From assembly GCA_001899635.1 (NCBI GenBank), contig MKVQ01000001.1, positions 1 through 64,000 on the forward strand: a DNA stretch of 64,000 bases, in the 5' to 3' direction. The translations under genes and the position numbers were made by a program. The notes under the pieces are model-generated. The model did no database searches, was not told the origin of the DNA, and saw only the letters and a list, made by a program, of their open reading frames with translations. Shown piece after piece: positions 1 through 62,713 of the stretch. Positions within the stretch are counted from its first letter, which is position 1. Each line of letters starts with the position of its first letter. The stretch comes from Myxococcales bacterium 68-20. Lineage in GTDB: Bacteria > Myxococcota_A > Polyangia > Polyangiales > Polyangiaceae.

Positions 1-236
1 TCGCGGCCGCTTTGTCTCTCTGCCAGAGCCGCTCTCTACGTGCGCTTGATTCGGGCGAGGGCGCCGCGTCCATACGAACGATCGGCGGACGTTCCGCACG
101 CCAACCTGTTCCCATCAGAGGTCGTGGCGCTCGTCCGCGTCTCAGCGTTCCCGCTCAGGTTCATTGGCGCCCCTGTCGGGCCGATGGTAACTGCCGCGCT
201 CGCTTCCCGCCCACGCCGCCCCGTGCGACAACCTCC

Positions 237-30074: not shown

Positions 30075-31160
30075 ATGCGCGCGATGCGGAGTCGCCGGGC
30101 AATCCGCGCGGCCGTTCTTCTCCCTGCTGTCGCGACGATCGCGATCGCGGGAGTGGCGCGCGCGCAGTCGAGCGCGTCGCCGAGCGTCCCGATCCTCGCG
30201 CTCGATTGGAGCGCTCCGCCCGAGTGCCCCGACGCGGCGCACGTGAAGGCGCGCGTCGAGCAGCTCGTCGGGCACACGCACGGCGACAAGACGCTTGCCG
30301 CCGAAGGTCGGATGACCGCCTCGAAGGCGCGCTATCGCGTCGAGCTTCGCATCGGCGCCGGCGCGCCCTCGCGACGGACGATGACCGGCAGCGACTGCGC
30401 GCGGCTCGCCGAGGCAGCGGCGTTGATCTTCGCGCTCGATATCGATCCCGAAGCGCTCACGCGCGCGACGACGGCGCAGGTCGAGCCCGAGAAGGCGCCA
30501 GCTCCCGGGCCTCGCCGTCCTGACGGCGATAGCGACGACGCAAGCGACACGCTCCGCGAGCGCGCGCCCGAGAAGCCGGACGCGCTCGTCGGCCCGCGCC
30601 GCGATAGACAGGCGGGCCCGCGTCACCATGGCGACGAGCCTGGCGAGCCTGTCGAGATCGGCGTCGCGGCCCGGCTCTTGTTCGATCAAGGCTCATTGCC
30701 TAAAGCCACGCTCGGTCTCGGAGCGGCGGTCGAGATCGCGCGGGGCCTCTTCTTCTTCGACCTCGGCCCTTCGATCTACCGGCGCCGGTTCGTCGGCGGT
30801 CCGCGCTCCGGGAGCGGGGGCGCCTACGTCGAGCTCACGACGCTCAACGCTCGAGGATGCGCGCGCCACACGGCCCCGCCGTTCCAGGTGCGCGCGTGTC
30901 TCGGCGGCGAGCTCGGCCGTGAGGGGACGCGCGGCGTCGGCATCGCGGAGCCGACCGCGTCGTCTGCCCTATGGGGCGCCCTCTCGATCGGCCTCGAAGC
31001 TCGAGCGTGGGAGCGCAGCCGCTTATCGCCGTCGTTCGGCGTGGGCGTCGGACACCCGGTGGTCGCTCCGGACGTCGCCATCCACGGCTTCGGTAGGCTC
31101 TTCGAGCCGCCTATTCTCTTCGTTCGCGCGCATCTGGGGCTGGAGGTGCGCCTTTTTTGA
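30075..31160 (+). CDS. Cassette A outer-membrane-like protein
   Basis: A 361-residue exported protein: signal peptide, an N-terminal globular domain with LALDWSAPPECPDAAHVKARV and TGSDCARLAEAAALIFALDI, a Pro/Asp-rich linker (about 135-200) and a beta-rich C-terminal part with alternating aromatic and small residues that could form a membrane barrel. The matching gene of cassette B (56689) shares the SAPPECP/SAPAECP motif, the second Cys motif and length (363). It opens the cassette, 61 bp before the sigma factor. Role may be sensing or transport for the system it precedes. ATG 30075 follows CGGTAGG. Confidence 0.8.
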   Translation: MRAMRSRRAIRAAVLLPAVATIAIAGVARAQSSASPSVPILALDWSAPPECPDAAHVKARVEQLVGHTHGDKTLAAEGRMTASKARYRVELRIGAGAPSRRTMTGSDCARLAEAAALIFALDIDPEALTRATTAQVEPEKAPAPGPRRPDGDSDDASDTLRERAPEKPDALVGPRRDRQAGPRHHGDEPGEPVEIGVAARLLFDQGSLPKATLGLGAAVEIARGLFFFDLGPSIYRRRFVGGPRSGSGGAYVELTTLNARGCARHTAPPFQVRACLGGELGREGTRGVGIAEPTASSALWGALSIGLEARAWERSRLSPSFGVGVGHPVVAPDVAIHGFGRLFEPPILFVRAHLGLEVRLF

Positions 31161-31220
31161 CGACGTCGTGATGATTCTCCGGCGCGCCATCACTAACCCC
31201 GAGTGCACTCGCCGCATGCC

Positions 31221-31793
31221 ATGTCGGGGATCGTCGCGGAGTTTCCGCTGAGCACGGATCCACCTGCGCGCGCGCCTGCGCTGACGTTCGAAGAGGTGTA
31301 CGAGCAGCACTACCGCTTCGTCTGGCGCGTCCTTCGAACCTTCGGTCTCTCGCGCACGGCGGTCGACGACGCGACGCAGGACGTCTTCGTCGTCGTCCAT
31401 CGCCGCCTCCCGGAGTTCGAAGGTCGGAGCACCGTCCGCACCTGGCTCTTTCGCATCGCGAGCTGGGTGGTCGCGCATGAGCGCCGGCGCTTCCGGTCGA
31501 AGCCGGAGCACGCGCCGATCGACGACGACATCTCCGACGCCTCCCCCGGACCGTTCGACGTCGCCGCTCGCAGTCAGGCGCTCCGCGAGGTCGAGCGCCT
31601 CTTGAGTCTCATGGACGAGGAGAAGCGCCTCGTCTTCGTCCTCATGGACCTCGAAGAGATGAAGGCGGCCGAGGTCGCCGAGCTCTTGGAGACCAACGTC
31701 AACACCGTGTACTCGCGCCTCCGCCTCGCGCGCGAGCAATTCCGGCGTCTGCTCGAAGCGAGCCACGCGTCTCGGAAAGGAAAGGAACCGTGA
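31221..31793 (+). CDS. ECF-family RNA polymerase sigma factor (cassette A)
   Basis: A 190-residue sigma-70 factor of the extracytoplasmic-function type. Region 2 is clear at about 20-85 (YEQHYRFVWRVLRTFG, DDATQDVFVVVHRRLPEFEG, TVRTWLFRIASWVV) and region 4 at about 120-180 (EKRLVFVLMDLEEMKAAEVA, NVNTVYSRLRLAREQFRRLL). It lacks regions 1 and 3. The ATG at 31221 is preferred over an upstream GTG. Stop overlaps the next gene in GTGA. Such factors are normally held by a membrane anti-sigma factor, and the next gene is the likely one. It should direct polymerase to its own operon or a linked set. Confidence 0.93.
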   Translation: MSGIVAEFPLSTDPPARAPALTFEEVYEQHYRFVWRVLRTFGLSRTAVDDATQDVFVVVHRRLPEFEGRSTVRTWLFRIASWVVAHERRRFRSKPEHAPIDDDISDASPGPFDVAARSQALREVERLLSLMDEEKRLVFVLMDLEEMKAAEVAELLETNVNTVYSRLRLAREQFRRLLEASHASRKGKEP

Positions 31794-32488
31794 GCGAGCT
31801 GTCACCGAAAGAGCTCGAGATCATCGAGACTCTTCGATCCGAGTGGGGGCCCACCGGCGCGAAGCCGCCGTCGCCGGAGGCGATCCGAGCGCGGCTCGCC
31901 GACAAGCCTTGGCTCGCCCGTCCGGTTCCGTCGCGGACTGCGCCGCGATTCGTGCGCCTCGTCGGCGCGACGATGGCGACCGTCGGGCTCTGCACATTCG
32001 GCTTCGTCGCGCTTCGCGAAGACGCGAAGCCGGCGGCGAGCGTCGCGATCGAGCCGCCCCGTGCGCCTTCGCCGGTCGTGCCGAGTGCGCCTTCGCCGGT
32101 CGCGGCGTCGTCCGCCTCGCCGTCGGTCGAGCCGACGATCGCGATCGAGTCGCTGCCCGACGCGCCGCCGGTCGCGACGGCCGTCCGCGCTGCGCGAAAG
32201 CTCGGGGCCGAGGCCGACTCCGACACGCTCGCCGAAGAGCTGGAGCTCGTGCGCGCCGCGCAAAGCGCGCTCCGCGAAGGCGCTCCCGATCGCGCGCTTC
32301 GACCGCTTGCGACACACGCGTCGCGCTTTCCACGCGGCGTCCTCCGCGACGAGCGCATGACGCTCCAGGCGCTCGCGCACTGCGCGCGCGGCGACGTCGC
32401 GACCGCGCGCGCGCTCAAATCCGAGCTCGAGCGCGTCTCACCGGGCTCTTCGCACCTCCAACGCCTCGCCTCCTCGTGTGCCCGATGA
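31790..32488 (+). CDS. Cassette A membrane regulator, putative anti-sigma with TPR-like tail
   Basis: A 232-residue protein starting with GTG in overlap with the sigma gene. A cytoplasmic N-terminal part of about 55 residues (KELEIIETLRSEWGPTG) precedes one membrane helix at about 55-75, then a Pro/Ser/Ala-rich periplasmic linker, then a helical C-terminal ~80-residue domain with LELVRAAQSALREGAPDRAL and ALKSELERVSPGSSHL, similar to tetratricopeptide repeats. The topology fits an anti-sigma factor, with the tail sensing something outside. A matching protein follows the sigma gene in cassette B. The anti-sigma role is inference from position and topology, since no zinc ZAS motif is seen. Confidence 0.75.
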   Translation: MSELSPKELEIIETLRSEWGPTGAKPPSPEAIRARLADKPWLARPVPSRTAPRFVRLVGATMATVGLCTFGFVALREDAKPAASVAIEPPRAPSPVVPSAPSPVAASSASPSVEPTIAIESLPDAPPVATAVRAARKLGAEADSDTLAEELELVRAAQSALREGAPDRALRPLATHASRFPRGVLRDERMTLQALAHCARGDVATARALKSELERVSPGSSHLQRLASSCAR

Positions 32489-33684
32489 AGACCCAAGCCA
32501 TCCTCGGAACAGCGGTAGCGACCCTCGCGATCGGCATCGCCCTCCTCTCGGCCTGCGCCGACACGATCATCGCGGGCACCGATCCGCCTCCCGCCCCGGC
32601 TCCGAGCTTCGCCGGTCCCGACGCCGGGCCGCCTCCCGCGCCCGAGACGATGATGTGCATCTCGTACGATTGTCCGGAACCGTACGCGACCTGTCCCGGC
32701 AAAAAGGGACTCTGCAATTCGAATATCGACAACGACATCAACAACTGCGGTGCCTGCGGGAACAAGTGCAACTACGGAGACGCCGGCGCAGTCAACGCGC
32801 TCCTTTCGTGCCGCGCGGGTCAGTGCAGCGTCCAATGCGAGAGCCTCTTCGGCGACTGCAACGGCGTGATCGAAGATGGCTGTGAGGCCCATCTCGGACG
32901 AGACGAGGCAAATTGTGGTGCCTGCGGTAACGCCTGCAAACCCGGCGAGGTCTGCTGGCGCGCGGTGTGCGGCTGTCCTCCCGGCTACACGCAATGCGCA
33001 AGTCCCTTTGGGGGCGACGACGTCTGCGTGCGTCTCGACAACGATGCCCGCAACTGCGGAGCGTGCAATCTCCACTGCGCCGAGGCGGCCGACGACGCCG
33101 GTCCGCCGGCGTGGCCTTGCGGCCCGGGTGTGACGCCGGACAAGTGGGGCCCCATCTGCGAGGACTCCTCGTGCACATTCAATTGCACCGAAGGCTTCCA
33201 AAACTGCAACGACGACCTCTGCGGTGACGGCTGCGAGACCGATCTCGAGAACGATCCGAAGAACTGCGGAGCGTGCGGCCACCAGTGTTTGCCGGAGCAG
33301 GGATGCATCAAAGGCAAATGCGAATGCGGCGATCCGAAGCTGACCTTCTGCAACGGCAAATGCACCGAGCTCCAGACGGACCCGGCCAACTGCGGGGCAT
33401 GCGGCAATTTCTGTCCCGGATATTTGGATGTCTCCAGCAGCGCGCTCGGTAGTCCGACATGCGTCCTCGGTCGATGCGGATTCGCCTGTCCGCCCGGGCG
33501 CGCCGACTGCGACCATCGCATCGAGAACGGTTGTGAGGTCGACACGCGGCTCGACCCGCTGAACTGCGGTGGATGCGGGATCGAATGCGAGCGCGACGGC
33601 GGAGCGGAAGGTGCCCAGCCGTGCGCCGCGGGACAGTGTCTGACGAAGCCTTGCCCGCCGCCGGACGCAGGAGGTGTGTTTTGA
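32485..33684 (+). CDS. Cassette A Cys-rich lipoprotein, six NCGAC repeats
   Basis: A 399-residue lipoprotein (lipobox LLSAC) coupled by ATGA overlap. After a Pro-rich linker it has six units built on N-C-G-A-C-x-x-x-C, for example NNCGACGNKC, ANCGACGNAC and LNCGGCGIEC, spaced by segments with DGCE(T/V)D and CxGxC motifs. The many Cys probably pair within units to form a rigid, elongated disulphide stalk. The cassette B counterpart (59155) also has six units in the same order. It was not recognised as a named family; likely surface-exposed and proteinase-resistant. Confidence 0.88.
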   Translation: MKTQAILGTAVATLAIGIALLSACADTIIAGTDPPPAPAPSFAGPDAGPPPAPETMMCISYDCPEPYATCPGKKGLCNSNIDNDINNCGACGNKCNYGDAGAVNALLSCRAGQCSVQCESLFGDCNGVIEDGCEAHLGRDEANCGACGNACKPGEVCWRAVCGCPPGYTQCASPFGGDDVCVRLDNDARNCGACNLHCAEAADDAGPPAWPCGPGVTPDKWGPICEDSSCTFNCTEGFQNCNDDLCGDGCETDLENDPKNCGACGHQCLPEQGCIKGKCECGDPKLTFCNGKCTELQTDPANCGACGNFCPGYLDVSSSALGSPTCVLGRCGFACPPGRADCDHRIENGCEVDTRLDPLNCGGCGIECERDGGAEGAQPCAAGQCLTKPCPPPDAGGVF

Positions 33685-34826
33685 TTCGCCCGACCCGAGG
33701 CGCGTTCCTCGCGCTCCTTCTGTCTGCGAGCGGGGTGAGCCTGCTCGCGAGCTGCGCCGAGAGCGGTCATCCCGCCGCGCCGCTGCCGGACGCCGGCGAG
33801 CCGCCGAGCCCGGAGGCCAGCGTCCCTGTCGTCGAACAATGCCAAAAGGGCGCGTGGTGCCGCGTGGAGCTTCCGGAAGCACGCGTCTCCCTCAACGGGA
33901 TCTGGGGCTCGGGCCCGAGCGACGTATGGATCGTCGGCACTCCAGCGATTGTCCATCACTGGAACGGCTCGCGATTCGAGTCGAGCCGTATCGAGACGAA
34001 CCAGTCGCTATTCGGTATTTGGGGGAGCGGCAAAGACGACGTTTGGGCGTTCTCCACGACCCACTCGATGTGGCACGCGGTGCCCGACGCCGGCTGGTCA
34101 CGTTCGAACGGCACGGTCGGGATGCTCGACGGCGGCGGCTATCCCCCAGCGATCTCGGCGATGTGGGGGCCGAACGCGACGGATCTCTGGGCAGTCGGCC
34201 CGTCGACCGAGTTCGGCGTCCGCTTGCTGCCCTCGGTCTATCACTCCGAGGGCTGGCGCAACGGCGAGCCGGACTGGCAGCCGTCGCATACGGGCGATCC
34301 ATCCGCGTCGGGCGCGCCAGCGCTCGAGAAGATCACGTTCAACGCGGTCTGCGGCAGCTCCGACACGCGCGTCTGGATCGCCGGCAACGGCGGCAAGATG
34401 CGGTATTCGAGTGGCTGGAGAGGCGAGGCGACGACGTGGTCGCCGCTCAACAGCCACACGTCCAGGGATCTGTTCGCGCTCTGGTGCAGCCCCGACGGCG
34501 ACGTATGGACGGCCGGCGAAGGCGGCGTCATCCGGCGTATCACGCGCTCCGAAGACGGATACGTGGCCTCCGAGATCGAGACGCCGACGACGAGGAGCCT
34601 CCGCGGGCTCTGGGGCGCCGCAGCCGACGACATCTGGGCCGTCGGTGACGCTGGAACGATCCTGCATTGGGACGGCAAGGCTTGGAGTGTGCCTGAGGCG
34701 CCTCTCGGCGCGACCCAAGATAATCTCTTCGCGATCTGGGGAGCGAGCAAAGACGAGCTCTGGATCGCGGGGCGCAACGTTCTTCTTCACAACGGCAGCG
34801 CGCCGATCCGGGGCAAATCGCTATGA
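33681..34826 (+). CDS. Cassette A seven-bladed propeller-like lipoprotein (WG repeats)
   Basis: A 381-residue lipoprotein (lipobox LLASC). TTG start at 33681 in TTGA overlap with the previous stop, with GGAGG six bases upstream, supports this unusual start. Seven repeats carry the pattern GIWGSGxxDVWxVG: LNGIWGSGPSDVWIVG, LFGIWGSGKDDVWAFS, ISAMWGPNATDLWAVG, then variants near FNAVCGSS, LFALWCSP, LRGLWGAA and LFAIWGAS. Seven repeats of about 45-50 residues make a seven-bladed beta-propeller likely. It is probably a binding, not a catalytic, unit. Cassette B has two counterparts. Confidence 0.88.
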   Translation: MIRPTRGAFLALLLSASGVSLLASCAESGHPAAPLPDAGEPPSPEASVPVVEQCQKGAWCRVELPEARVSLNGIWGSGPSDVWIVGTPAIVHHWNGSRFESSRIETNQSLFGIWGSGKDDVWAFSTTHSMWHAVPDAGWSRSNGTVGMLDGGGYPPAISAMWGPNATDLWAVGPSTEFGVRLLPSVYHSEGWRNGEPDWQPSHTGDPSASGAPALEKITFNAVCGSSDTRVWIAGNGGKMRYSSGWRGEATTWSPLNSHTSRDLFALWCSPDGDVWTAGEGGVIRRITRSEDGYVASEIETPTTRSLRGLWGAAADDIWAVGDAGTILHWDGKAWSVPEAPLGATQDNLFAIWGASKDELWIAGRNVLLHNGSAPIRGKSL

Positions 34827-36166
34827 GGTCCAAGCTCATCGTCGTCGCTGGCGTCCTCGCTTCCGCCTCGGCGCTCGTCCACTGCTCGTCGAGCGAGACG
34901 CCCGACGCTCCGTCCGAAGACGCGAGCGTCCGGCCCGACGTCGTCGTGGCGGACGCGGGCGACGCTTCACCCATCACCGACGCGGCGATGGAAGACGAGT
35001 TCGAGATTCCCGACGGCGCGATCGTGTGCGATGCCACTCCTTGCGCGTTGGCCATCGGCTCCGGCTACACGAGCGCGTCCCTCGGAGGCTTCTGCGCGCT
35101 CCTCGACGACGGCACCGTCCAGTGCTGGGGGCACGGACCCGTTCGCAGGCTCGGCTACGACATCGACGCGAGCAGCCTCCTCGAGCAGTTCAGCAGCGCG
35201 CCTCGCCGGGTCGAGGGCCTCTCCGGCGCGACGAGCATCGGCGTCGGCGGAGACAACGGATGCGCGGTCGTGTCCGACGGGGGCACCTATTGCTGGGGCA
35301 ACGCCGCGCTCGTCAACGCGGGGGTCGATCCGGACGCGAGCGCGCCGATCGTCGCGCCGGCGCTCGCCACGCGCCAGGATCTCGTGCCTCCGGCCTCCGC
35401 GGTCGCCGTCGGAATGAACACGGCGTGCGTGACGGACGACGCCGGCGCGATGCGCTGCTGGGGGCACAACGGAAGCGGCCAGCTCGGACGTCCTCCCGCC
35501 GCGTCCGCGCCACCGGCCGAGGTCGCGATCGAGCAGCCGGTGGCGATCGCCGCTCCGGCCGACGGGCGGACGTTCGCGATCACCGAAGGCGGAGAGATCT
35601 TCTCCTGGGGCGCGGACAGCACGGGGCGAGCGCGGGATTTCCTCCTCGGTCGCGATACCTCGGAAGATCCCGATCCGGTCCCTCACGTCTTCACCGGAGT
35701 CTCCGGCGTGCGCGCTGTCTCGTCGGGGACCAACCATTCGTGCGCCATCATCGGGCGGCGCGTCGAGTGTTGGGGGGGGAGCACGCTGGGGGACCTCGGA
35801 CGCGGCGCGACCGGCGTGTTCCCATCGCCCCCTGCGCCGACGATCCTCGAGGCCGTCGCGCCCGGCGAAATTCCGCTGCACCTGTCCGTGGACTACGCGC
35901 GCTCGTGCGTCGTCATGGGCAGCGGCAGCGTCTACTGCTGGCAGTCGCGAGACTCGGTCGACGCGGGCGCCGGAGAGCCATGGCGCGTCGAAGGTCTCAG
36001 CGGACCCGCTGTGGCCGTTACGTCGGTGCAGCGCACTACCTGCGCGCTCCTTCGTTCGGGGGTCGTCGAGTGTTGGGGCGCCAACATCACCGGCGCGCTC
36101 GGTCGCGGCATCGAGGATCACTTCTTCGTCGATCCGAATCCAGGTCGCGTGTTGTTCGCTGATTAG
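34823..36166 (+). CDS. Cassette A RCC1-repeat lipoprotein
   Basis: A 447-residue lipoprotein (lipobox ALVHC) coupled by ATGA. Seven repeats of RCC1 type end in CWG or a close variant, for example ALLDDGTVQCWGHG, CVTDDAGAMRCWGHNGSGQL and TCALLRSGVVECWGANITGA, so a seven-bladed propeller is likely. Each blade typically has a Cys pair across the turn. An eight-base G run at 35772-35779 within CWGGS could cause slippage and phase variation. The counterpart in cassette B is the truncated gene at 62710. Surface ligand unknown. Confidence 0.9.
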   Translation: MRSKLIVVAGVLASASALVHCSSSETPDAPSEDASVRPDVVVADAGDASPITDAAMEDEFEIPDGAIVCDATPCALAIGSGYTSASLGGFCALLDDGTVQCWGHGPVRRLGYDIDASSLLEQFSSAPRRVEGLSGATSIGVGGDNGCAVVSDGGTYCWGNAALVNAGVDPDASAPIVAPALATRQDLVPPASAVAVGMNTACVTDDAGAMRCWGHNGSGQLGRPPAASAPPAEVAIEQPVAIAAPADGRTFAITEGGEIFSWGADSTGRARDFLLGRDTSEDPDPVPHVFTGVSGVRAVSSGTNHSCAIIGRRVECWGGSTLGDLGRGATGVFPSPPAPTILEAVAPGEIPLHLSVDYARSCVVMGSGSVYCWQSRDSVDAGAGEPWRVEGLSGPAVAVTSVQRTTCALLRSGVVECWGANITGALGRGIEDHFFVDPNPGRVLFAD

Positions 36167-36183
36167 CCAGAAAGCGTAATTCG

Positions 36184-37056
36184 ATGTTTCGTGGCGTAAA
36201 GCTGGTTCTGATCGTCGTTCTTGGTATGACGGCAATTCATTGCTCGTCGAGTCGGACCGTGTTCGAGTCGGGGCCCGACGCGAGCGATGTTCCGCCTGAG
36301 CCGTTCATCGAGCCGCTGGAGGCCTCGGTCGACGCGGGACGCGTCGAGGTCGAGTGCACAGGGACGAACAGTCAGATCTACGTGCTGTCATCGAACCCGG
36401 CGGCGATTCACCGTTTCGATCCGGAGACGCTCACGTTCACCCGCCTCGGCTACCTCGATTGCCCGGCGACGAGCCCGTTCTCGATGGCCGTCGATCGCTT
36501 CAACAACGCCTGGGTCAACTTTCACGCGGGCAAGCTCGCCAAGGTTCGCCTCGACGATCTGCACTGCGAGCTGCTCGATTTTCGCAATCCGCCGAATGGT
36601 TCGTGGACCTTCGGAATGGGATTCGCCAGGAACGACGATGGAAAGGGCGAGACGCTCTTCCTCTCGAGCAGTGAGCTCTTCGATCTCGATTCGAAGACGC
36701 TCGAGGTGAGCCGCGTAGGATCGATGAACGTCTTCGGTATGCCCGAGCTGACGGGAACGGGTGACGGCCGCCTCTATGGCTTCACGCCCGACAACGGGGT
36801 CGTCACGCGCATCGACAAGTCGACCGGCGCGACCATCGAGACGCATCGGACGTCGGCGGTCGAGGCGGGCGACTGGGCCTTCGCGCAGTGGGGCGGCGAC
36901 TTCTGGCTCTTCACCCGCAACGGTCGGCAGGCTTCCTCGATGGTGACGCGCTACTCGCCGGAGACGCGGGCGTCGGTCGTCGCGGTCGAGGACTCGGGCA
37001 TCGTCATCCGCGGCGCGGGCTCGTCGACCTGCGCGCCGTTCAAGCCGGTGCAGTAG
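36184..37056 (+). CDS. Cassette A terminal lipoprotein, propeller-like
   Basis: A 290-residue lipoprotein (lipobox AIHCSS) starting 17 bp after the RCC1 lipoprotein. Repeats such as IYVLSSNPAAIHRFDPETLT, FSMAVDRFNNAWVNFHAGKL and GRLYGFTPDNGVVTRIDKST are typical of NHL/SMP-30-like propellers. It has no counterpart in the visible part of cassette B. ATG 36184 has no strong ribosome site. Likely co-transcribed with the cassette. Family not named. Confidence 0.78.
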   Translation: MFRGVKLVLIVVLGMTAIHCSSSRTVFESGPDASDVPPEPFIEPLEASVDAGRVEVECTGTNSQIYVLSSNPAAIHRFDPETLTFTRLGYLDCPATSPFSMAVDRFNNAWVNFHAGKLAKVRLDDLHCELLDFRNPPNGSWTFGMGFARNDDGKGETLFLSSSELFDLDSKTLEVSRVGSMNVFGMPELTGTGDGRLYGFTPDNGVVTRIDKSTGATIETHRTSAVEAGDWAFAQWGGDFWLFTRNGRQASSMVTRYSPETRASVVAVEDSGIVIRGAGSSTCAPFKPVQ

Positions 37057-40796: not shown

Positions 40797-42248
40797 GTGA
40801 AGCGGGAGAGGGACTGTCGCTCGACGCTGGGCGTGGCGGTCATGTTCGCAGCGCTCTCGTTTGCGAGGCCCGCCCGCGCGGACGACGGAGCCACGCCTCC
40901 GGTGCCCGAGCCGTCTCCGCAGTCGGATCCCGTCGCGCCGCCTTCGGAGTCGTCGCCTCCGGAGGCGGCGTCGCCGGTGCCTTTCGCGCCGCCGTCGCCC
41001 GCACCGCCGCCGTCGCCTGCCGCCTCGCCGGAGCCGCTCGCGTCGGAGCTCGGCGAGAGGTCTCCGCGCTTCGGGGCGAAGGGCTCGATCGTGGTGACGG
41101 CCGGCGTCGACGTCTCCATCGGCTCGACGAGCTACGACAACAGCTCTGCGGAGAGCTTCGTCGTCACGTTCGCGCCCGGCGCCAGCTACTTCATCGTCGA
41201 CGGCGTTTCCATCGGCCTCGAAGGGACGATCGCTCACAGCGCCCAGCGGAGCTACGGCGTCGACGACAGTCTGGTCGGCGTCAAGACGACCGCGTGGAGC
41301 ATCGGGCCGCGGGCGGGCGTCAACGTGTGGCTCTCGAGAATCCTGTCGCTCTACCCGCGGCTAACGCTGGGGCTCGAGTCGGTGCGACGGGACGAGCGGG
41401 TCATCGAGGGCGCATCGCCGTCGACGGCCGGCAACCCGCTCGGTATCCCATCGACGACGCGCCTCGGTCCATATGCGTCTCTCTTCGTGCCGCTGCTCCT
41501 CCATCCGGCGCCGCACGTGTTCTTCGAGGTCGGTCCTTCGCTGTTCCACGAGCTTGGGCGCGCCGGGGGCGGTCCGGAGATCGGCGGCCAGCGGACGTCG
41601 ATCGGCGCTGGCATCGGTGTCGGTACGTGGTGGGGAGGCAAGACCGACCGTGTCCCGTCGCAACCGGCGGAGCGGACGCCGGCAGCGCGCTTCGGCGACG
41701 AGCGCACCTTGGTGCTCGGCGGCCGGATCGGCGGCAGCTACACGTCGTATGCGGGTACGCGCTCCGAGACGGCGGGACTCTCGGTTGGTCCGGCGATCGA
41801 CTACTTCATCACCGAGCGCTTCTCGGTGGGCCTGGGCGTCGCGTACCATCGCTCGCACCGTCGAGCGCTGCAGTCGACGGGGGCCGAGATCGAGCAATCG
41901 AGCAACGGCATCAGCTTCGCGCCGCGCGTCGGGATCGACTTCCCGATCACGTCGCGGCTGTCGCTCTACCCGCAAGCCGCGGTCTCGTTCGGCTCCGGAT
42001 CGATCACGCTCGAGAGCGCTGGTTCGCGGCTCGAGTATTCGGAGACGACCGTGACCGTCAGCGGGTTCGCGCCCCTGTTGATCCACGCAGCTCCGCATGC
42101 ATTCATCGGCTTCGGCCCGTACGTCACCCGGGACGCCGAACGGGAGGTGGAGATCCGCTCCAAACGGGGCGGCGCGATCAACGGGGGCAAGGTCGACAAC
42201 CCGGGCACGTCAGTCGGTGCGAGCCTGGTCGTCGGCGGGTGGCTGTGA
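40797..42248 (+). CDS. Outer-membrane beta-barrel protein with internal duplication
   Basis: A 483-residue exported protein. GTG 40797 gives a signal peptide (LGVAVMFAALSFARPARA) and a Pro/Ser-rich linker to about 95. The rest consists of two similar halves, about 100-285 and 300-480: each has a TAGVDVSIGSTSYDN / GGRIGGSYTSYAGTR start, a PGASYFIVDGVSIGLEG / GPAIDYFITERFSVGLG segment and a LLLHPAPHVFFEVGP / LLIHAAPHAFIGFGP end. This looks like two eight-strand barrels or one of sixteen, generated by duplication. Transport, adhesin and structural roles are all possible. Confidence 0.83.
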   Translation: MKRERDCRSTLGVAVMFAALSFARPARADDGATPPVPEPSPQSDPVAPPSESSPPEAASPVPFAPPSPAPPPSPAASPEPLASELGERSPRFGAKGSIVVTAGVDVSIGSTSYDNSSAESFVVTFAPGASYFIVDGVSIGLEGTIAHSAQRSYGVDDSLVGVKTTAWSIGPRAGVNVWLSRILSLYPRLTLGLESVRRDERVIEGASPSTAGNPLGIPSTTRLGPYASLFVPLLLHPAPHVFFEVGPSLFHELGRAGGGPEIGGQRTSIGAGIGVGTWWGGKTDRVPSQPAERTPAARFGDERTLVLGGRIGGSYTSYAGTRSETAGLSVGPAIDYFITERFSVGLGVAYHRSHRRALQSTGAEIEQSSNGISFAPRVGIDFPITSRLSLYPQAAVSFGSGSITLESAGSRLEYSETTVTVSGFAPLLIHAAPHAFIGFGPYVTRDAEREVEIRSKRGGAINGGKVDNPGTSVGASLVVGGWL

Positions 42249-56412: not shown

Positions 56413-56688
56413 GAGACGCGAGGGTAGCCGTCACGCCTCGGGCCCGAAAGCGAGATGACGCGCTTCCATCGTCGATGGGCGACCGATGGCGACGAATCGG
56501 ATTGGAGCGAGGGACGCCGATGGTCGAGGAGAATTGCAGCGCACGACGTCTCACGCCCGGGCGAGCACGTGACCGCGCTCGCGCTCGCACGGATTGTCGG
56601 CGGGGGAACGTGCGTCGTCGAGCTCGGCCCTGGAGCGGGCGCCGATGGCCTGGCATCGATCGCGCGCGCACGATAGCTTCGCCTATTG

Positions 56689-57780
56689 GTGAAAGTGTTG
56701 GCGCGGTGGAGGGCGCTTCGAGCCTCGTACGCGTCCGCCCTGATCGGTCTCGTCTCGCCGCTGCTCGTCCCTCTGGACGCGCGCGCCGAAGGACCGATCG
56801 AGCAGATTGGACTCGACTACTCGGCGCCGGCCGAGTGCCCCTCCGCAGAGCAGGTTCTGCGGCAGATCGCGGGGTACACGGCGAAATGGACGCTGGCGCA
56901 CGGACGCGACGACGTGAGGCACTTTCGTCTTCGCGCCGAACATCGTGACGGCGCCTACGTCGGACGCTTCGATCTGCGAGAGGCGGACGGCACGACGGTC
57001 GGGCGTGAGGTCACCGGCGACAGCTGTGAAGACGTGGCGCTCGCTCTCGCCATCACGGTCGCGCTTGCGATCGATCCTCGTGCGACCGTCGGTGTCGGCG
57101 AGGAGTCACCGAGCCCGGTTGGCGTCCAGGTGACCGATGCTCCGCCCGCTCCGAACGATTCGTCGTCGCCACCTCGCGGTGAGCCCAAGGTAGGCACCGT
57201 GCCCGACAGACCGGTGAAGCCGGCGGCGCGCGCCGATGTTGCTTCGCCGCGCATGAACCTGGCCGTGGGAGCTCGAGTCGAGGGGACGACGGCGGTGTCG
57301 GGACTCCTCGCCGTGATCGACGCGTTCTTCGAGATCGAAGCGGAGCGGGCGATCGAGCGCCTTCCTTGGTTCCGGCCCGTCGTTCGCGTGGGGCTCCGGC
57401 AGAGCTTCACGCGTACTGCCAGCGTCGGAGACGCGCGGGTCGACATCGGCTGGACCGCGGGCCAAATCGAAGCCTGCCCGAGCCGTCTCGTGTTCGCTTC
57501 GCAGCTGTCGGTCGAGGGGTGTCTGGGCGCGAACGTCGGTGAGCTCACGGCGCTGGCGCGCGACATCCCCGGCGCGGAGCGCACGCGGCGCCTCTGGTTC
57601 GACTACGGAGGACTGCTTGCCCTGCGCTGGCAAGCTCATCCCAATTTGTTCGCCGAGCTGGCGGGGGCGTCGTGGGTGCCGCGAACGCGCGATCGACTGC
57701 GGGTTGCGCCCGATGGCCTGGTGAGCCGAGCGCCGGAGGTCGGCTTCTCTGCGGGGGTGGGGATCGGCTGGCGGTTCTGA
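56689..57780 (+). CDS. Cassette B outer-membrane-like protein
   Basis: A 363-residue counterpart of the 30075 product. Signal peptide; N-terminal domain with LDYSAPAECPSAEQVLRQIA and GDSCEDVALALAITVALAID, then a Pro/Ser linker, and a beta-rich C-terminus ending VGFSAGVGIGWRF, with terminal Phe as expected for a membrane barrel. The GTG at 56689 is chosen among TTG 56686 and GTG 56695. It sits 41 bp before the sigma gene. Function is inferred only from the shared cassette plan. Confidence 0.8.
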   Translation: MKVLARWRALRASYASALIGLVSPLLVPLDARAEGPIEQIGLDYSAPAECPSAEQVLRQIAGYTAKWTLAHGRDDVRHFRLRAEHRDGAYVGRFDLREADGTTVGREVTGDSCEDVALALAITVALAIDPRATVGVGEESPSPVGVQVTDAPPAPNDSSSPPRGEPKVGTVPDRPVKPAARADVASPRMNLAVGARVEGTTAVSGLLAVIDAFFEIEAERAIERLPWFRPVVRVGLRQSFTRTASVGDARVDIGWTAGQIEACPSRLVFASQLSVEGCLGANVGELTALARDIPGAERTRRLWFDYGGLLALRWQAHPNLFAELAGASWVPRTRDRLRVAPDGLVSRAPEVGFSAGVGIGWRF

Positions 57781-57821
57781 AAAAAGTTGATCGATTCCGG
57801 GGGGACCCGGCGTTCACGACC

Positions 57822-58406
57822 ATGACGGTCATCTCTTCCTCGCTCGCCGGGAGTGAAACCACTCTGCCGCGCGCCGCGAGGAGCCACGCCGAGGATCGTC
57901 AGCACGAAGTCGCCACCGCCCATTTTGCGAGCGTGTGGCGATTCCTTCGCACGCTCGGCGTTCCCTCCAACGCGGTCGACGACGCGACCCAGGAAGTCTT
58001 CCTCGTCGTCGCGCGCAAGCTCGAGAAGATTCGTCCGGGGTGCGAAAAGTCGTTCCTCTTCAGCACTGCCGTCCTCGTCGCGCGCCACTTGCGACGGAAA
58101 TACAGACACGAGGAGCTCGCGGTCGACCCCGACGACGAATCCCTCGAACCGACGCACGACGCCACGCCCGAGGACTCCCTCGGCAAGAAGGAGGAGCAGG
58201 ATCTCCTCCTCGTTCTGCTCGAGGGCCTGACGGACGAGCTTCGAACGGCGTTCGTCCTCTCCGAAATCGAAGGTCAATCCGTCCCCGAGATCGCAGCGGT
58301 GCTCGGTGTCCCCGTCGGGACCGCCGCGTCGCGTGTCCGTCGAGGGCGAGACAAGTTCGAAGAACGGCTGAAAAGAATGCAGATGAGAATGCGAGGTGGG
58401 CGATGA
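57822..58406 (+). CDS. ECF-family RNA polymerase sigma factor (cassette B)
   Basis: A 194-residue ECF sigma factor. Region 2: FASVWRFLRTLGVPSNAVDD and ATQEVFLVVARKLEKIRPG; region 4: LRTAFVLSEIEGQSVPEIAA and GTAASRVRRGRDKFEERL. The N-terminus is a little longer than in the cassette A sigma. ATG 57822 fits; the open frame runs farther up without coding look. Stop overlaps next start (ATGA). It is more diverged from cassette A than the rest of the cassette in the region 4 helix, so promoter specificity may differ. Confidence 0.93.
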   Translation: MTVISSSLAGSETTLPRAARSHAEDRQHEVATAHFASVWRFLRTLGVPSNAVDDATQEVFLVVARKLEKIRPGCEKSFLFSTAVLVARHLRRKYRHEELAVDPDDESLEPTHDATPEDSLGKKEEQDLLLVLLEGLTDELRTAFVLSEIEGQSVPEIAAVLGVPVGTAASRVRRGRDKFEERLKRMQMRMRGGR

Positions 58407-59158
58407 CCGAACGTCGTCCGCTGCTGGAAGAGAACGAGCTCTTCGCGAAGCTCGTCGCCGACGCAAGGCGGCGTGAACCGCCGCCCGAAGCGCTGGAGAG
58501 TCTGCATCAGAAGCTCGCCGCGCGTCCCGGGCCGTTTGCCCAGTTCGCGAGCATCGGCTTGCGGCGCTGGGGTTGGACCGCGCTTGCGGGGATCGTATCG
58601 CTCGCCGTGGTCGGTGTGGTGCACGGCCGACGAGCGCCGACCGAGGTCATCTCGGAGGCACCGTCGACCCTCGCACCGATGACGACGGTGACGGCTCCTC
58701 CTGCGTCGCCGCCGCTCGAAGCTCCGGCGATGCCGCCGGTGGCCTCCGTCTCCGTCGACGACCTTCCGAGCTCGTTCGCGGCGCCGGACACGAAAGACGT
58801 CGCGCCTCCACCGCGAACACGCTTCGCGCCGCCCTCTGCGCCGGCGTCGTCCGCGGTCCGTCCGTCCGAGTCGCATGCACGCTCCGTCCGGCGCGAGCTC
58901 GAGCTCATCGCGCTCGCACGAGCGGCGCTCACGAACGGAGACGTTCGCGCATGTCTCGCAGCGCTCGATCTTCACGACCGAGAATTCCCCGCCGGGCAGT
59001 TTGCCCTCGAAGCGAAGGTGATGCGGATCGAGGCTGCGTTCGCGGCCGGCGATCGGAACGGTGCTCGCTCGCTCGCTCGCGACTATCTCGAAGCGAACCC
59101 GAGCAGTCCCTACGACGCGCGCATTCGTTCGCTTCTTTCTTCCCTGGAGGACCGATGA
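58403..59158 (+). CDS. Cassette B membrane regulator, putative anti-sigma with TPR-like tail
   Basis: A 251-residue equivalent of the 31790 product: N-terminal cytoplasmic section (LLEENELFAKLVADARRREP), one membrane helix near 55-75 (WGWTALAGIVSLAVVGVVHG), a Pro/Ser/Ala-rich stretch and a helical C-terminal ~85 residues (ELELIALARAALTNGDVRAC, LARDYLEANPSSPYDARI) like TPR. It is coupled by ATGA at both ends. The regulator role rests on position and topology; there is no clear ZAS motif. The periplasmic tail could read cell-surface state. Confidence 0.75.
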   Translation: MTERRPLLEENELFAKLVADARRREPPPEALESLHQKLAARPGPFAQFASIGLRRWGWTALAGIVSLAVVGVVHGRRAPTEVISEAPSTLAPMTTVTAPPASPPLEAPAMPPVASVSVDDLPSSFAAPDTKDVAPPPRTRFAPPSAPASSAVRPSESHARSVRRELELIALARAALTNGDVRACLAALDLHDREFPAGQFALEAKVMRIEAAFAAGDRNGARSLARDYLEANPSSPYDARIRSLLSSLEDR

Positions 59159-60252
59159 AGGTTCGAATCGGCAGCTCTCTTCTTTTTGCCCTGGTGGGCG
59201 TGCTCGTCTTCGCGTGCACGTCTTCCGACGACGTGATCGTCGCCACGCGTCCCGACGCTTCTGCACCGATCTTCGTCGACTCGGACGGTGGCTCCGTGCC
59301 GGATGCTTCGAGCAGCGGCGGTATGTGCCCCACCGCGAACTGTCCTCCGGGGCACGCAACCTGTCCGCACAGCCAATTCCCGTGCTCCGATCTTCGCAGT
59401 GACGACAACAACTGCGGTGCATGCGGCAACGTCTGTCCGCAGCTCGCGGGCGGCAATGGTCTCAACATGCACGGCGCGATGCAGTGCGTCGACGGACAAT
59501 GCAAATTGTCTTGTGACGTCGGATACGCGAACTGCAATGGCTTGGTCGAGGACGGCTGTGAAGCGGACCTGGTCAGTGTCGAAAACTGCGGCGAATGCGG
59601 ACTGGCCTGCCCGGCCAACCATGCCTGTCTGGGCAGCAACTTGTCGCCCACGTGTGAATGCACCATCTATGGAAGCTGCGGCGCCTGCGGAAATTTTTGC
59701 CCGGAGAACACCGAGCCGCCGTTCCCGGAGGAGTGGAACGCGAGCTACGACTGTCGTGCCGGCGAATGCAACAAGCCCGGTTGCAACACGGGATATCAGG
59801 ATTGCAACGGCGACTTTGACAGGGCGGATGGCAACGGTTGCGAGACGAACACGTTCAATGACCCGCTGAACTGCGGCGGGTGCGGGATCAAGTGTCTCGT
59901 GAGCGAGGGCGAGATCTGTGAGAGCGGCCGCTGCATCTGCCGGTGTGGTGCGCGTTGCTCCCAAACTGCGCTCGACACGGACGTCAACAACTGCGGGGCG
60001 TGCCAGTTCTCGTGTCCGGAGGGCGAATACGGCAAGGACGATCATGCCTCGCGGGCCTGCACCAACGGCGTCTGCGGTTTCCGATGCGCGGCTCTCTGGG
60101 GAGATTGCGACGGCATGACCACCAACGGCTGCGAGACGAACCTCGGTAGCGACCCTCAGAACTGCGGGGCGTGCGGAGTTCGATGCGACGCAGTCGAAGG
60201 TCAGGCTTGCGTCGACGGGCGCTGTACCACCGAGGAGTGCACGATCAAATGA
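59155..60252 (+). CDS. Cassette B Cys-rich lipoprotein, six NCGAC-type repeats
   Basis: A 365-residue lipoprotein (lipobox LVFAC) with six N-C-G-x-C-type units: NNCGACGNVC, ENCGECGLAC, GSCGACGNFC, LNCGGCGIKC, NNCGACQFSC and QNCGACGVRC. The number and order match the cassette A protein. Between units DGCEAD, NGCETN and CxxxC segments recur. Probably a disulphide-rigidified stalk on the surface. ATGA overlap with both neighbours. Confidence 0.87.
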   Translation: MKVRIGSSLLFALVGVLVFACTSSDDVIVATRPDASAPIFVDSDGGSVPDASSSGGMCPTANCPPGHATCPHSQFPCSDLRSDDNNCGACGNVCPQLAGGNGLNMHGAMQCVDGQCKLSCDVGYANCNGLVEDGCEADLVSVENCGECGLACPANHACLGSNLSPTCECTIYGSCGACGNFCPENTEPPFPEEWNASYDCRAGECNKPGCNTGYQDCNGDFDRADGNGCETNTFNDPLNCGGCGIKCLVSEGEICESGRCICRCGARCSQTALDTDVNNCGACQFSCPEGEYGKDDHASRACTNGVCGFRCAALWGDCDGMTTNGCETNLGSDPQNCGACGVRCDAVEGQACVDGRCTTEECTIK

Positions 60253-61445
60253 GGCGCGTAGCTAGGCAGTTCTGGGCTCTTTCGATCGTGCCGGCGACGC
60301 TCGGCGCCTTCGCCGCGTGTGCGGCCGAAGGGGGGGCCTCCGGAACGCAGGTGGAGGTCCAACCGGACGCTTCGAGCACGGAAGCCGCGGCCGTCGTCGA
60401 CGACGCTTCGAGCGACGGCGCCACCGGGGACGCGGGAATCGAGAAGTGCAGCGCATCGGGGCTATGCATCGCCGACGTCCCGATTCCGCCCAAATCGTCC
60501 GTGACGAGCGTCTGGGGCTCGAGCGCCACCGACGTCTGGGCCGTCGGCAACCAAGGTCTCATCGCCCATTTCGATGGCTCTCGATGGGAAGTGGCCGAGA
60601 GCGAAGTGCCTGATGGCTCGCTCGTCTATACGGCGAGAGGCGTTTGGCTCGAGCGTCCCGACGACGTGTGGATCGTCGAGGGAGACCGCATCCGGCACGG
60701 GACGGGATGGAAGGGGCCGAAAGCGACGGAATGGTCGACCTTCCGATATCCCGTCATGAGTGGATACGTCTCGTACTTGCCGGCCGCGGTGCACGGCCTG
60801 GGCGATACGGTCTGGGTCGGTCACCTACGCCACTACGACCGTACTCCGGTCGAACGCATTTCGGGCTGGGTCGACGGTAGTCCCCGCGCCCGCGAGGGGC
60901 TCTGGGTTCGTACGAACGAGATTCGTGCGATCACGACGGCGCGCAAGGACGAAGTCTGGTTTGTCGGCTCCTGCAATCGCGCGCTCGCTCGCAGCTGCGC
61001 CTTCCGCGCGAGTCGGCCGGCAGAGGCTGCACCGGATGTCTCGTTCTCCGATTGGGAGCTCACGGAGTTCGACGCCCGGACGGAGCTACCTCTCTCCGCC
61101 GCATGGGCACATGCCGACGACGTTTGGCTCGTGGGCGAGGGAGGCGCGATTAGGCGCCTGACCGCGAGCTCGCGGCCGACGAAGAAGTTCGAGTTCGTAG
61201 GGAGTCCGGTTACCACCGATCTGCACGGCGTCTTCGGATTCGGTCCGGACGACGTGTGGGTGGTCGGCGAGGCCAGCACGGTCCTCCATTGGGACGGGAC
61301 GAGCTGGACGAAGCTCTCGACGCCGTTCGACCAAGAGAAGAACAAGCCGAGATTGCTCTCGGTCTGGGGCAGCTCGGCCGGCGACGTGTGGATTGCGGGC
61401 GACGGAACGATGCTGCACTTCCAGCGGGAGAAGATCGCGAAATGA
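60249..61445 (+). CDS. Cassette B seven-bladed propeller-like lipoprotein 1
   Basis: A 398-residue lipoprotein (lipobox AFAAC) with a Ser/Asp-rich linker and seven repeats of WG type: VTSVWGSSATDVWAVG, ARGVWLERPDDVWIVE, IRAITTARKDEVWFVG, LSAAWAHADDVWLVG, LHGVFGFGPDDVWVVG, LLSVWGSSAGDVWIAG and a weaker one near AAVHGLGDTVWVG. Each blade probably has Asp and Trp on the top loop. Overlap ATGA both ends. Binding role likely, no enzymatic motif. Confidence 0.87.
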   Translation: MRRVARQFWALSIVPATLGAFAACAAEGGASGTQVEVQPDASSTEAAAVVDDASSDGATGDAGIEKCSASGLCIADVPIPPKSSVTSVWGSSATDVWAVGNQGLIAHFDGSRWEVAESEVPDGSLVYTARGVWLERPDDVWIVEGDRIRHGTGWKGPKATEWSTFRYPVMSGYVSYLPAAVHGLGDTVWVGHLRHYDRTPVERISGWVDGSPRAREGLWVRTNEIRAITTARKDEVWFVGSCNRALARSCAFRASRPAEAAPDVSFSDWELTEFDARTELPLSAAWAHADDVWLVGEGGAIRRLTASSRPTKKFEFVGSPVTTDLHGVFGFGPDDVWVVGEASTVLHWDGTSWTKLSTPFDQEKNKPRLLSVWGSSAGDVWIAGDGTMLHFQREKIAK

Positions 61446-62713
61446 ACGTGGGAAGAGTTCGGGGCGCCGTCCTGCCGGCGCTCGGTGTGGTCACGGCACT
61501 TCTCGCGCCAGTCGCATGTGCGGAGAGCAACGCGACGTCGAGTCTCGACGACTTCGAGAACGTCCCGGGTGGCGAGGATGCTGCCGTTCCGACGACGACG
61601 ACGGAGGCGGGAACCAGCACGGACGCTGGACGGCCCGACGGGGACGCTTCGTCTCGCGCGACATGCAGTACGGGCGGCTTCTGCGTGACGCCCCTGCCGG
61701 CCACGTTCCCGCTCCTCGGCGTCTCGGCGCTCGACGCGGACGCCTGGGCGGTGGGGACACGAGGCGTCCTGCGGTGGGACGGAACGGTGTGGCATCACGT
61801 TCATGCGACGACGATCGAGGCTTCGGGAGCTCACAACGGAATCTGGACGGCGAAGGCGGACGATCTGTGGGTGACGACCGACAGAAAGGTCATTCGATAT
61901 TCCAAGCAAGGGGGCGCTACACAAGAATTTCGGGAGTTTTCGAACGATCTCGCTGTCAGGGCAAGTTGGCTCGACGCGAGCACGAACGCCCTCTGGGAGG
62001 TCGTGAGGCAGAACAACGGACAGTCGGCGGTCCATCGATTGCGTGACGCCGCCGGTGGCGAGCTCACGCGCGAAGATACGGGCATTCCGCTCTGGTCTGG
62101 AGACGGCGGTTCTTATCGCTGGTCGAGTATCTGGGGATTCGGCTCGTCGGATGTCTACGTCGGCGGCGAACATTGTCTGGTGAACGACTGTACGTGGGCT
62201 GCCTGGGCGCTCCGCGGGGCCATTGCGCACTACGACGGTACGAGCTGGTCGGTCACGCTTCTCGACGAGAGGCAACCCATTCATGCGATGTTCGGGACGC
62301 CGGGGCAGACCGAGCCTCGGAGGCTCTGGCTCTGGACTGGATATCGCCCTCTCTACAACCCATCGACGACGTCCATTCGACTCGTTTCGATTGCGAGCGA
62401 TGGCAGTCTCGGTGATCCAGTCATGACGAAAGACATGCCCATGCCTCCGGCCGATCCATCGGTGAACGCTCCGTGCTCCCATGTCGTGGGATCGATGCAG
62501 TCGGCCAACGCGGCTTGGCTTTCGAACGGCTGCCTGGTCTACCGTTGGAACGGAACGACCCTCGATGTGGTCCCCACCGCTGTCAACGGTGTGCCCGTCG
62601 GACGCGTGAGCTCGCTCTGGGGGGACGCCGCGGGTCGAGCGTGGATCGCGGGCCAAGGTCTCGAGTCGGGCGTGGGCTTCGCCGCTCTCCACACGGGAGG
62701 GAGCAATCCATGA
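61442..62713 (+). CDS. Cassette B seven-bladed propeller-like lipoprotein 2
   Basis: A 423-residue relative of the preceding one (lipobox APVAC). Repeats are weaker: LLGVSALDADAWAVG, HNGIWTAKADDLWVTT, RASWLDASTNALWEVV, WSSIWGFGSSDVYVGG, a longer insert and VSSLWGDAAGRAWIAG, again adding to seven. It lacks a counterpart in cassette A, so it was added here or lost there. Overlaps next gene in ATGA. Confidence 0.85.
   Translation: MNVGRVRGAVLPALGVVTALLAPVACAESNATSSLDDFENVPGGEDAAVPTTTTEAGTSTDAGRPDGDASSRATCSTGGFCVTPLPATFPLLGVSALDADAWAVGTRGVLRWDGTVWHHVHATTIEASGAHNGIWTAKADDLWVTTDRKVIRYSKQGGATQEFREFSNDLAVRASWLDASTNALWEVVRQNNGQSAVHRLRDAAGGELTREDTGIPLWSGDGGSYRWSSIWGFGSSDVYVGGEHCLVNDCTWAAWALRGAIAHYDGTSWSVTLLDERQPIHAMFGTPGQTEPRRLWLWTGYRPLYNPSTTSIRLVSIASDGSLGDPVMTKDMPMPPADPSVNAPCSHVVGSMQSANAAWLSNGCLVYRWNGTTLDVVPTAVNGVPVGRVSSLWGDAAGRAWIAGQGLESGVGFAALHTGGSNP

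Follow-up and report, generated by a model that had tools for sequence, protein, structure and literature searches.

Sigma-factor heads and predicted lipoprotein payloads have separate histories in an operon family of a Labilithrix genome

The window analysed here, the first 64,000 nt of contig MKVQ01000001.1 of Myxococcales bacterium 68-20, carries two operons, cassettes A and B, in which genes for an extracytoplasmic function (ECF) sigma factor and a regulator are followed by genes for predicted lipoproteins. In its canonical form the operon reads P-S-R-C-W-W-K-I, the letters standing for a predicted barrel protein (P), the ECF sigma factor (S), the regulator (R), and cysteine-rich (C), two propeller (W1 and W2), RCC1 (K) and IgGFc_binding (I) lipoproteins. 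Comparison of copies across the genome indicates that each canonical operon is chimeric, its two parts having separate histories: a head, made up of P-S-R together with the signal peptide and linker of C, and a payload of about 6.9 kb, made up of mature C-W-W-K-I. A preliminary description of the window had taken the cassette for a single co-inherited, self-contained unit, a view not supported here; because the histories of head and payload differ, no payload is bound to a single sigma factor. We read the cassettes as sensors that span the envelope, regulate themselves and trade their surface modules through recombination, a reading to which we assign a probability of roughly 60%. More tentatively, as less likely than not, we propose that Labilithrix runs a combinatorial surface-recognition repertoire: more than 100 sensor-sigma heads would serve as loci for a still ongoing recombinational exchange of five-gene payloads at a fixed in-gene junction, and the pairing of recognition apparatus with envelope switch would be reshuffled between, and perhaps within, populations.

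Cassette numbers and the histories of head and payload

The nearest named relatives place this genome in Labilithrix; the 11.9-Mb draft comprises 11,892,454 bases in 52 contigs. Searches for copies started from a two-row alignment of C (cassettes A and B) against the genome itself and 37 relatives, and 2.56 Mb around the own-genome matches to C and I were examined for cassettes, with genes called by a codon-usage script that placed some starts too late (for example that of W in cassette A) and classed with profiles seeded from A and B. At least 133 cassettes anchored on C were found, of which 90 read exactly P-S-R-C-W-W-K-I; S and R are present in 117, only P is missing from the run in 14, and variants or fragments make up the remainder. 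Added up, the spans of the 133 come to 1,183,656 bases, about 10% of the genome. The cassettes lie on 37 of the 52 contigs (70 in + and 63 in − orientation), some of them whole and in tandem, two to four per array. The count is a lower bound because only part of the search candidates was scored: 49 of 223 for C (54 matches, some genes giving two), 111 of 243 for I (111 matches) and 150 of 214 when only the C-terminal 150 residues of I served as query (135 matches at E ≤ 1e-10), the last query recovering all 109 own-genome places listed for full-length I. Three further heads, in which a contig end truncates C (on C34, C16 and C52), stand outside the 133, and a nucleotide pattern designed to find where I ends, which matched 19 of 48 known copies, was abandoned. 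Contamination as the source of the copies is thought unlikely because of their spread over 37 contigs; four of these exceed 600 kb, and contamination of the assembly is put at 4.2%.

Adjacent S-R pairs numbered 122 in the examined stretches, and 117 of them were followed by C, two by P and then C, and three by neither, one of these three pointing away from a payload. S and R overlap by 4 nt in 70 of the 90 canonical cassettes. The preliminary description, which staked its case on homologues keeping the gene order, had counted two copies, a large underestimate; since the order is kept in at least 133 places here and also in Labilithrix metagenome-assembled genomes (MAGs), the ordered set stands as a real conserved operon.

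Trees and distances were computed from the 90 exact cassettes out of 133, cassette A lying outside them. The main analysis concerns paralogues of one draft genome, which are not independent samples. Pairwise distances correlated strongly within P-S-R (r = 0.74–0.77) and within C-W1-W2-K-I (0.86–0.95) and hardly at all between the two blocks (0.03–0.12). Permutation-null maxima for S-I (0.16), P-I (0.07) and R-I (0.13) all exceed the observed values, while the r(S,R) of 0.74, set against a null maximum of 0.08, marks sigma factor and regulator as co-inherited. FastTree topologies tell the same story, when splits with support ≥0.9 are compared and a contradiction is scored by a strong split of the other tree: among 61 strong head splits, one was present in the payload tree and 60 were contradicted, and among 66 strong payload splits, two were found in the head tree and 64 contradicted. 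Control comparisons inside each part were largely congruent, with 32/43 splits found and 7/43 contradicted for P versus S+R, and 44/51 found and 4/51 contradicted for W1+W2 versus K+I. The 52 cassette pairs with I proteins more than 70% identical have a mean sigma identity of 0.336, against a background of 0.339. Cassette A illustrates the pattern, its payload being nearest to those at C40:170108 and C4:190503 (sigma 36–37% identical) and its head to that at C23:288368 (sigma 53%), which carries an ordinary I payload. Cassette B is nearest to one cassette, L066 of the genome MYX5, in S, R, C, W1, K and I.

Position and recurrence of the exchange junction

A 30-column scan of C places the change of affiliation within this gene. 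Windows within columns 0–45, which cover the signal peptide, lipobox and linker, are head-like (r_head 0.32–0.34, r_payload 0.05–0.08), window 30–60 is mixed (r_head 0.15, r_payload 0.51), columns 45–90 are payload-like (r_payload 0.79, r_head 0.06–0.07), and beyond column 90 r_payload is 0.26–0.77 with r_head ≤0.07. Coarser slices gave an r_head of 0.17 for columns 1–32 (null maximum 0.10) and of 0.06, under the null maximum, for columns 33–42. The 70 nt upstream of C track the head (r = 0.13–0.14, null maximum 0.07) and not the payload, and the 120 nt after I track the payload slightly (r = 0.06–0.07, null maximum 0.05). In 49 of the 52 payload-close pairs, those with sigmas less than 50% identical, DNA homology starts at a median of 15 nt upstream of the codon for the first Cys of mature C (10th percentile −165, 90th percentile −3) and ends at a median of 0 nt from the I stop (quartiles −6 and +4); no common sequence stood out downstream of I. 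Three contigs end inside C, and their C genes are 91–93% identical to each other from about nt 110–200 on while their sigmas are 33–38% identical, for which reason we take them to be recent copies left unresolved by assembly.

The same re-pairing is visible between species. Seventeen of 35 cassettes or fragments from other Labilithrix MAGs read exactly P-S-R-C-W-W-K-I. From the 20 of the 35 that carry both S and I, 14 pairs of head orthologues were obtained (S ≥70% identical and reciprocal best match; L057 and L060 share one own-genome locus, which is counted twice), and the best payload partner lies in the same cassette in eight and in a different one in six. Three of the six are clear. The head of L065 is 73% identical to C6:126126 and its I is 90% identical to that of C16:396898, whose sigma is 38% identical, the I of the head's own partner reaching 54%; L074 has a head 82% identical to one locus and an I 79% identical to another (53% to the head's partner), and in L080 (head 79%) I is 62% identical elsewhere versus 38%. 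By the record of distances, trees and homology limits, heads and payloads have been re-paired many times, both within the genome and between species, with junctions before the first Cys codon of C and at the I stop. The likely agent would be homologous recombination in the conserved block that starts at this codon.

Ordinary lineage-specific amplification, in which whole operons are duplicated and diverge with neither exchange nor any special system, accounts for the tandem arrays, for the whole-cassette orthologues that exist between species (for example L073 and L078), for the somewhat closer payloads kept by close sigma pairs and for the purifying selection under which the cassettes stand (dN/dS 0.23–0.58 in four close pairs). 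It also predicts congruent head and payload trees, which is the opposite of what 60 contradicted splits out of 61 display alongside largely agreeing within-part controls, and against it also stand 49 payload-close pairs with distant heads whose homology is bounded by nearly the same two endpoints. With the distance correlations and the scan of C added to these conflicts, we consider amplification very unlikely as the sole explanation.

Occurrence in other genomes was followed mainly through C and I. The C alignment search of 37 relatives gave 39 matches in the congener G003, 11 in another, one to four in five more and weak partial matches in one genome of another family, with no C match in G002, G005, G008 and G010. 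Among the best 80 of 385 relatives of C, which amount to 79 loci, P-S-R lies beside C in MAGs of Labilithrix, whereas in loci of other taxa C adjoins none of P, S and R; a bin labelled 'Polyangiaceae bacterium' holds R-C-W-W-K-I, cut at R (L072), and in other taxa K (L094) or I (L116) lies next to C. Sixteen genomes searched by coordinates had C matches in seven, near full-length only in Labilithrix G009 and G011, the other five giving partial matches only (best E 7e-34). I-like proteins are found in 75 of 183 genomes of the order (E ≤ 1e-60, seven candidates scored per genome). One of them, at G056:C195:2864-4648 in another family of the order, falls within the range of Labilithrix cassettes (E 3e-251) and may represent either a horizontal transfer or a contaminant contig.

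Such patchiness among congeners, with C abundant in this genome and in G003 and missing from the four others, might be expected if the payload were a selfish or mobile gene block that spreads behind resident heads supplying promoter and signal peptide, surface function being secondary. The repeated ends of the 6.9-kb unit and the near-identical C genes recently spread behind different heads fit this idea too. Against it, no payload gene is a recombinase by class and no common sequence stood out after I (flanking genes were not scanned with family models), and heads lacking a payload are few, 3 of 122 S-R pairs, a figure biased because the examined stretches were chosen around C and I. From one species to another, moreover, entire cassettes can be found in a changed neighbourhood (L073), though others are syntenic (L068). 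We hold a mobile block to be doubtful.

Several loci depart from the canonical arrangement. In L010 and L012 of this genome P follows R (S-R-P-C-...), so that the gene order of the head is not absolute. L048 of this genome and L069 of MYX8 have a P-S-R head that points away from the adjoining C-W-W-K-I payload; these heads are inverted or replaced. In the canonical cassettes L014, L017, L020, L023 and L026 (all own genome) I is followed by one or two additional K genes of the RCC1 type, and because the homology between L023 and L017 continues into the extra K gene, some payloads may be longer.

Predicted proteins and a possible trans-envelope relay

At first described as a plain secreted protein, P models as an outer-membrane (OM) beta-barrel with a small N-terminal domain. 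The AlphaFold2 model (33 sequences, mean pLDDT 79) places an N-terminal alpha/beta domain at residues 41–135, followed by a low-confidence linker and eight barrel strands at 194–359. In a VIA-align comparison, which bears mainly on barrel residues 190–361, the top matches were OmpA (Z 16.7, root-mean-square deviation (rmsd) 2.8 over 159 residues) and NspA (Z 16.6, rmsd 2.7 over 149 residues). No Pfam match was obtained for 33 P proteins except one at chance level, and the SAPxECP-like motif is not general, since only 38 of 90 P proteins carry the strict form. S of both cassettes matches ECF sigma regions 2 and 4 (Pfam/NCBIfam), region 2 of B falling just under the Pfam cut-off. R is predicted to be a single-pass protein with a C-terminal domain beyond the membrane span: a 19-residue hydrophobic stretch scoring >1.6 lies at about residue 62 in 81 of 90, and the tail is TPR-like, with TPR/YfiO-like Pfam matches below cut-off in B and no Pfam match in A.

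The payload proteins look like lipoproteins, with lipobox-like signals in C (82/90), W1 (84/90), W2 (83/90), K (79/90) and I (89/90); the same pattern occurs in P (33/90), S (2/90) and R (2/90). C carries NCGxC/Stig1-like repeats and matches NF041328 (MXAN_6577-like Cys-rich) at 93.5 bits in A and 46.1 bits in B, both below the curated cut-off of 100. Most C proteins have six cysteine units (73 of 90), while 14 have five and three have seven. W of cassette A matches PSII_BNR (34.2 bits, Pfam cut-off 27), and its 26-strand model (pLDDT 85, pTM 0.82) has Ycf48 as best match in the PDB (Foldseek, 5ojr, E 4e-12). The same Pfam model matches only 4 of 51 W proteins at E ≤ 0.01, and the two W proteins of B have sub-threshold or no Pfam matches. 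For the name 'WG-repeat' given earlier to W, Pfam WG_beta_rep (PF14903) matched nothing in this genome and nothing in any control genome either; the model of A's W supports a propeller and agrees with seven repeats in that protein, its best match being a seven-bladed propeller. RCC1 repeats are confirmed by Pfam in A's K. IgGFc_binding (PF17517) was present in all 12 I proteins tested, at 317 bits in B against a cut-off of 25.6.

The co-inheritance of P-S-R, the barrel of P, the membrane span of R and the adjacency of S and R lead us to infer that P, R and S form a trans-envelope relay, and a first gene coding for a predicted OM barrel points the same way. Fec/Pup cell-surface signalling links a barrel in the OM that has a domain in the periplasm, a regulator with one membrane span and a periplasmic C-terminal part, and an ECF sigma factor (PMC9249621), and to that extent FecA-FecR-FecI and PupB-PupR-PupI resemble the cassette in the order of parts across the envelope. 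The parts themselves differ: FecA is a plugged TonB-dependent receptor with an STN domain, whereas P models as an eight-stranded OmpA-type barrel; no FecR or STN match was found in P or R of A and B; and the Fec output is an iron transporter, whereas that of the cassette is an exchangeable set of lipoproteins in more than 100 copies.

As for the working of such a relay, the payload would be assembled on the cell surface upon the C stalk, where P and the payload together might sense contact, a ligand or the state of assembly. The periplasmic domain of P would signal to the tail of R, R would release S, and S would transcribe S-R-C-W-W-K-I from the P-S gap, closing a positive loop. Payload swaps would then put different recognition modules under different switches and yield a combinatorial surface repertoire, which perhaps serves, at a guess, in the recognition of prey, kin or substrate.

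Self-regulation by the cassette's own sigma factor, as first proposed, is weakly supported by sequence in the P-S gap that is common within some sigma clades (GACATTGCTC in one clade, CG.TTT...GATC in another); little is shared in clades 12 and 21, two of the seven clades shown, and no common promoter motif was found. For comparison, a review gives around 55% as the share of autoregulated members that a prediction tool identifies among the ECFs within its coverage (PMC8103513).

A number of observations weigh against exchange of surface modules between autoregulated sensors. On the side of regulation, the P-S gap correlates with the head and not the payload at values that are weak, though above null (r = 0.07–0.095), k-mer and position counts of short words, GGAAC among them, in the sequence preceding P and S gave no common ECF-type promoter motif, and no head-specific signal appeared upstream of P. 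No Pfam anti-sigma, FecR or signalling domain was found in P or R of A and B, nor in the 33 P proteins, and expression, surface location, P-R contact and R-S binding are inferred only. On the side of exchange, the payload too contains conflict (mature C versus K+I, 37/47 splits found and 8/47 contradicted), the 52 payload-close pairs come from 45 cassettes and are not independent, and pairing is not wholly random, as pairs with sigmas >60% identical have closer I proteins (0.53 vs 0.46, permutation p = 0.0005). The r(R,C) of 0.12 exceeds its null maximum of 0.08, as expected if the front part of C belongs to the head. Between species, eight of the 14 head orthologues keep their payload, three of the six others differ slightly (L086, 84 vs 78%; L061, 67 vs 60%; L062, 67 vs 65%), and in a set of 19 cassettes from other genomes r(S,I), at 0.21, does not exceed the null maximum of 0.31, with r(P,C) at 0.47, so that shuffling looks weaker there.

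The anatomy of an OM barrel and a regulator with a periplasmic tail would also suit a monitor of envelope stress or lipoprotein assembly, in which R and S sense misassembly of the payload at P instead of an external ligand and payload diversity reflects evasion of phage or predators, not recognition. Taken alone, such a monitor offers no explanation for more than 100 different switches, and PADLOC found no defence family in ten cassette proteins apart from a weak TPR match; we think it unlikely.

Other known kinds of system share features with exchangeable payloads under many sensors. Bacteroidetes SusCD loci resemble the cassettes in that ECF/regulator pairs occur there as numerous paralogues, each next to an operon for surface lipoproteins; the cassette genes include no SusC/SusD or glycan enzyme, and we know of no exchange at a fixed in-gene junction described for those loci. 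CDI/Rhs polymorphic toxins have a conserved front and exchangeable C-terminal ends, and the cassette likewise joins a conserved front to a swapped back at a fixed junction within a gene; here the swap extends over 6.9 kb and five genes to the last stop of the operon, the front is a regulatory circuit, and no toxin or immunity family was seen in the cassette. Antigenic variation (vls, pilE, VSG) likewise draws on numerous variant cassettes, with recombination replacing the sequence of a surface protein, but with a single expression site and silent stores, whereas 117 of the 133 cassettes have their own sigma factor and regulator. The polymorphic myxobacterial kin-recognition receptor TraA resembles the cassettes in variable surface recognition, and is a receptor with a variable domain as against a large operon family. 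As to the claim that the combination is undescribed, no publication on it was found among the titles and abstract openings listed in a search with subscription journals mostly outside it.

A tenth of a 12-Mb genome is devoted to one operon kind. Should the repertoire be real, it would be the bacterial counterpart of receptor-repertoire variation or antigenic variation, with entire multi-gene modules as its units. The sharp, repeated junction amounts to a natural rewiring experiment, with one machine under many sigma circuits and one circuit driving many machines. If recognition is what the machines serve, the genome of a relative of social predators encodes a repertoire that recombines, and this would bear on why such genomes carry so many ECF sigma factors. 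A gene order that is conserved while the partners are exchanged also calls for caution where co-function is inferred from synteny.

Cassettes A and B in the window

A gene check bore out the two cassettes in the positions, strand (+) and order first assigned to them (Table 1). From the sigma gene onward the genes overlap by 4 nt or nearly abut, and A and B are 41% identical in C, 35% in S, 34% in R and 33% in P (pairwise MAFFT). Some details were amended. Cassette B does contain the second W, and it also has a terminal I past the window end; the different terminal lipoprotein of A is confirmed, and stands in place of I, which A lacks. Exactly six NCGxC units, claimed for both, are found in C of A, while in B one of the six units departs from the motif.

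Table 1 Features of cassettes A and B (positions in the 64,000-nt window)
Feature	Position	Strand	Remarks
P, cassette A	30075–31160	+	Signal peptide, SAPPECP N-terminal alpha/beta domain, linker, modelled C-terminal 8-stranded OM beta-barrel
P-S gap, cassette A	31161–31220	+	Putative promoter site for own sigma
S, cassette A	31221–31793	+	ECF sigma factor
R, cassette A	31790–32488	+	Single-pass, TPR-like tail (weak TPR match), proposed anti-sigma factor
C, 5' part, cassette A	32485–32655	+	Lipoprotein signal peptide and linker; head by inheritance pattern of the 90 canonical cassettes, position by homology
Mature C, cassette A	32656–33684	+	Six NCGxC units; first Cys codon at 32656 = payload start
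W, cassette A	33681–34826	+	Lipoprotein, Ycf48-like 7-bladed propeller (model); TTG start at 33681 overlaps C stop
K, cassette A	34823–36166	+	RCC1-repeat lipoprotein
x7, cassette A	36184–37056	+	Terminal lipoprotein; weak kelch-like matches below cut-off; payload variant C-W-K-x7
P, cassette B	56686–57780	+	
P-S gap, cassette B	57781–57821	+	Putative sigma-specific promoter (sigma clade 9)
S, cassette B	57822–58406	+	ECF sigma factor
R, cassette B	58403–59158	+	Single-pass, TPR/BamD-like tail
C, 5' part, cassette B	59155–59325	+	Signal peptide and linker; head part, by homology
Mature C, cassette B	59326–60252	+	Five NCGxC and one SCGAC; payload starts at first Cys codon
W1, cassette B	60249–61445	+	Propeller-like lipoprotein
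W2, cassette B	61442–62713	+	Propeller-like lipoprotein
K, cassette B	62710–64065	+	RCC1-type lipoprotein; window ends at 64000
I, cassette B	64062–65834 (beyond window)		IgGFc_binding (PF17517) lipoprotein; completes payload

Between the two cassettes, a gene at 40797–42248 (+) matches the P profile weakly (25.6 bits) and has no adjacent sigma factor or regulator. Directly after I of cassette B, at 65916–66968 (+) of the same contig, lies a gene for a cysteine-rich lipoprotein, and a gene 48% identical to it follows a different cassette in locus L055 of MYX5. Further beyond the window, at 71947–72774 (+) of the contig (15947–16774 of L001), there is a lone R-like regulator with no payload, with a possible sigma-gene end before it and a 1541-residue protein after it, which may be a head with a different output.

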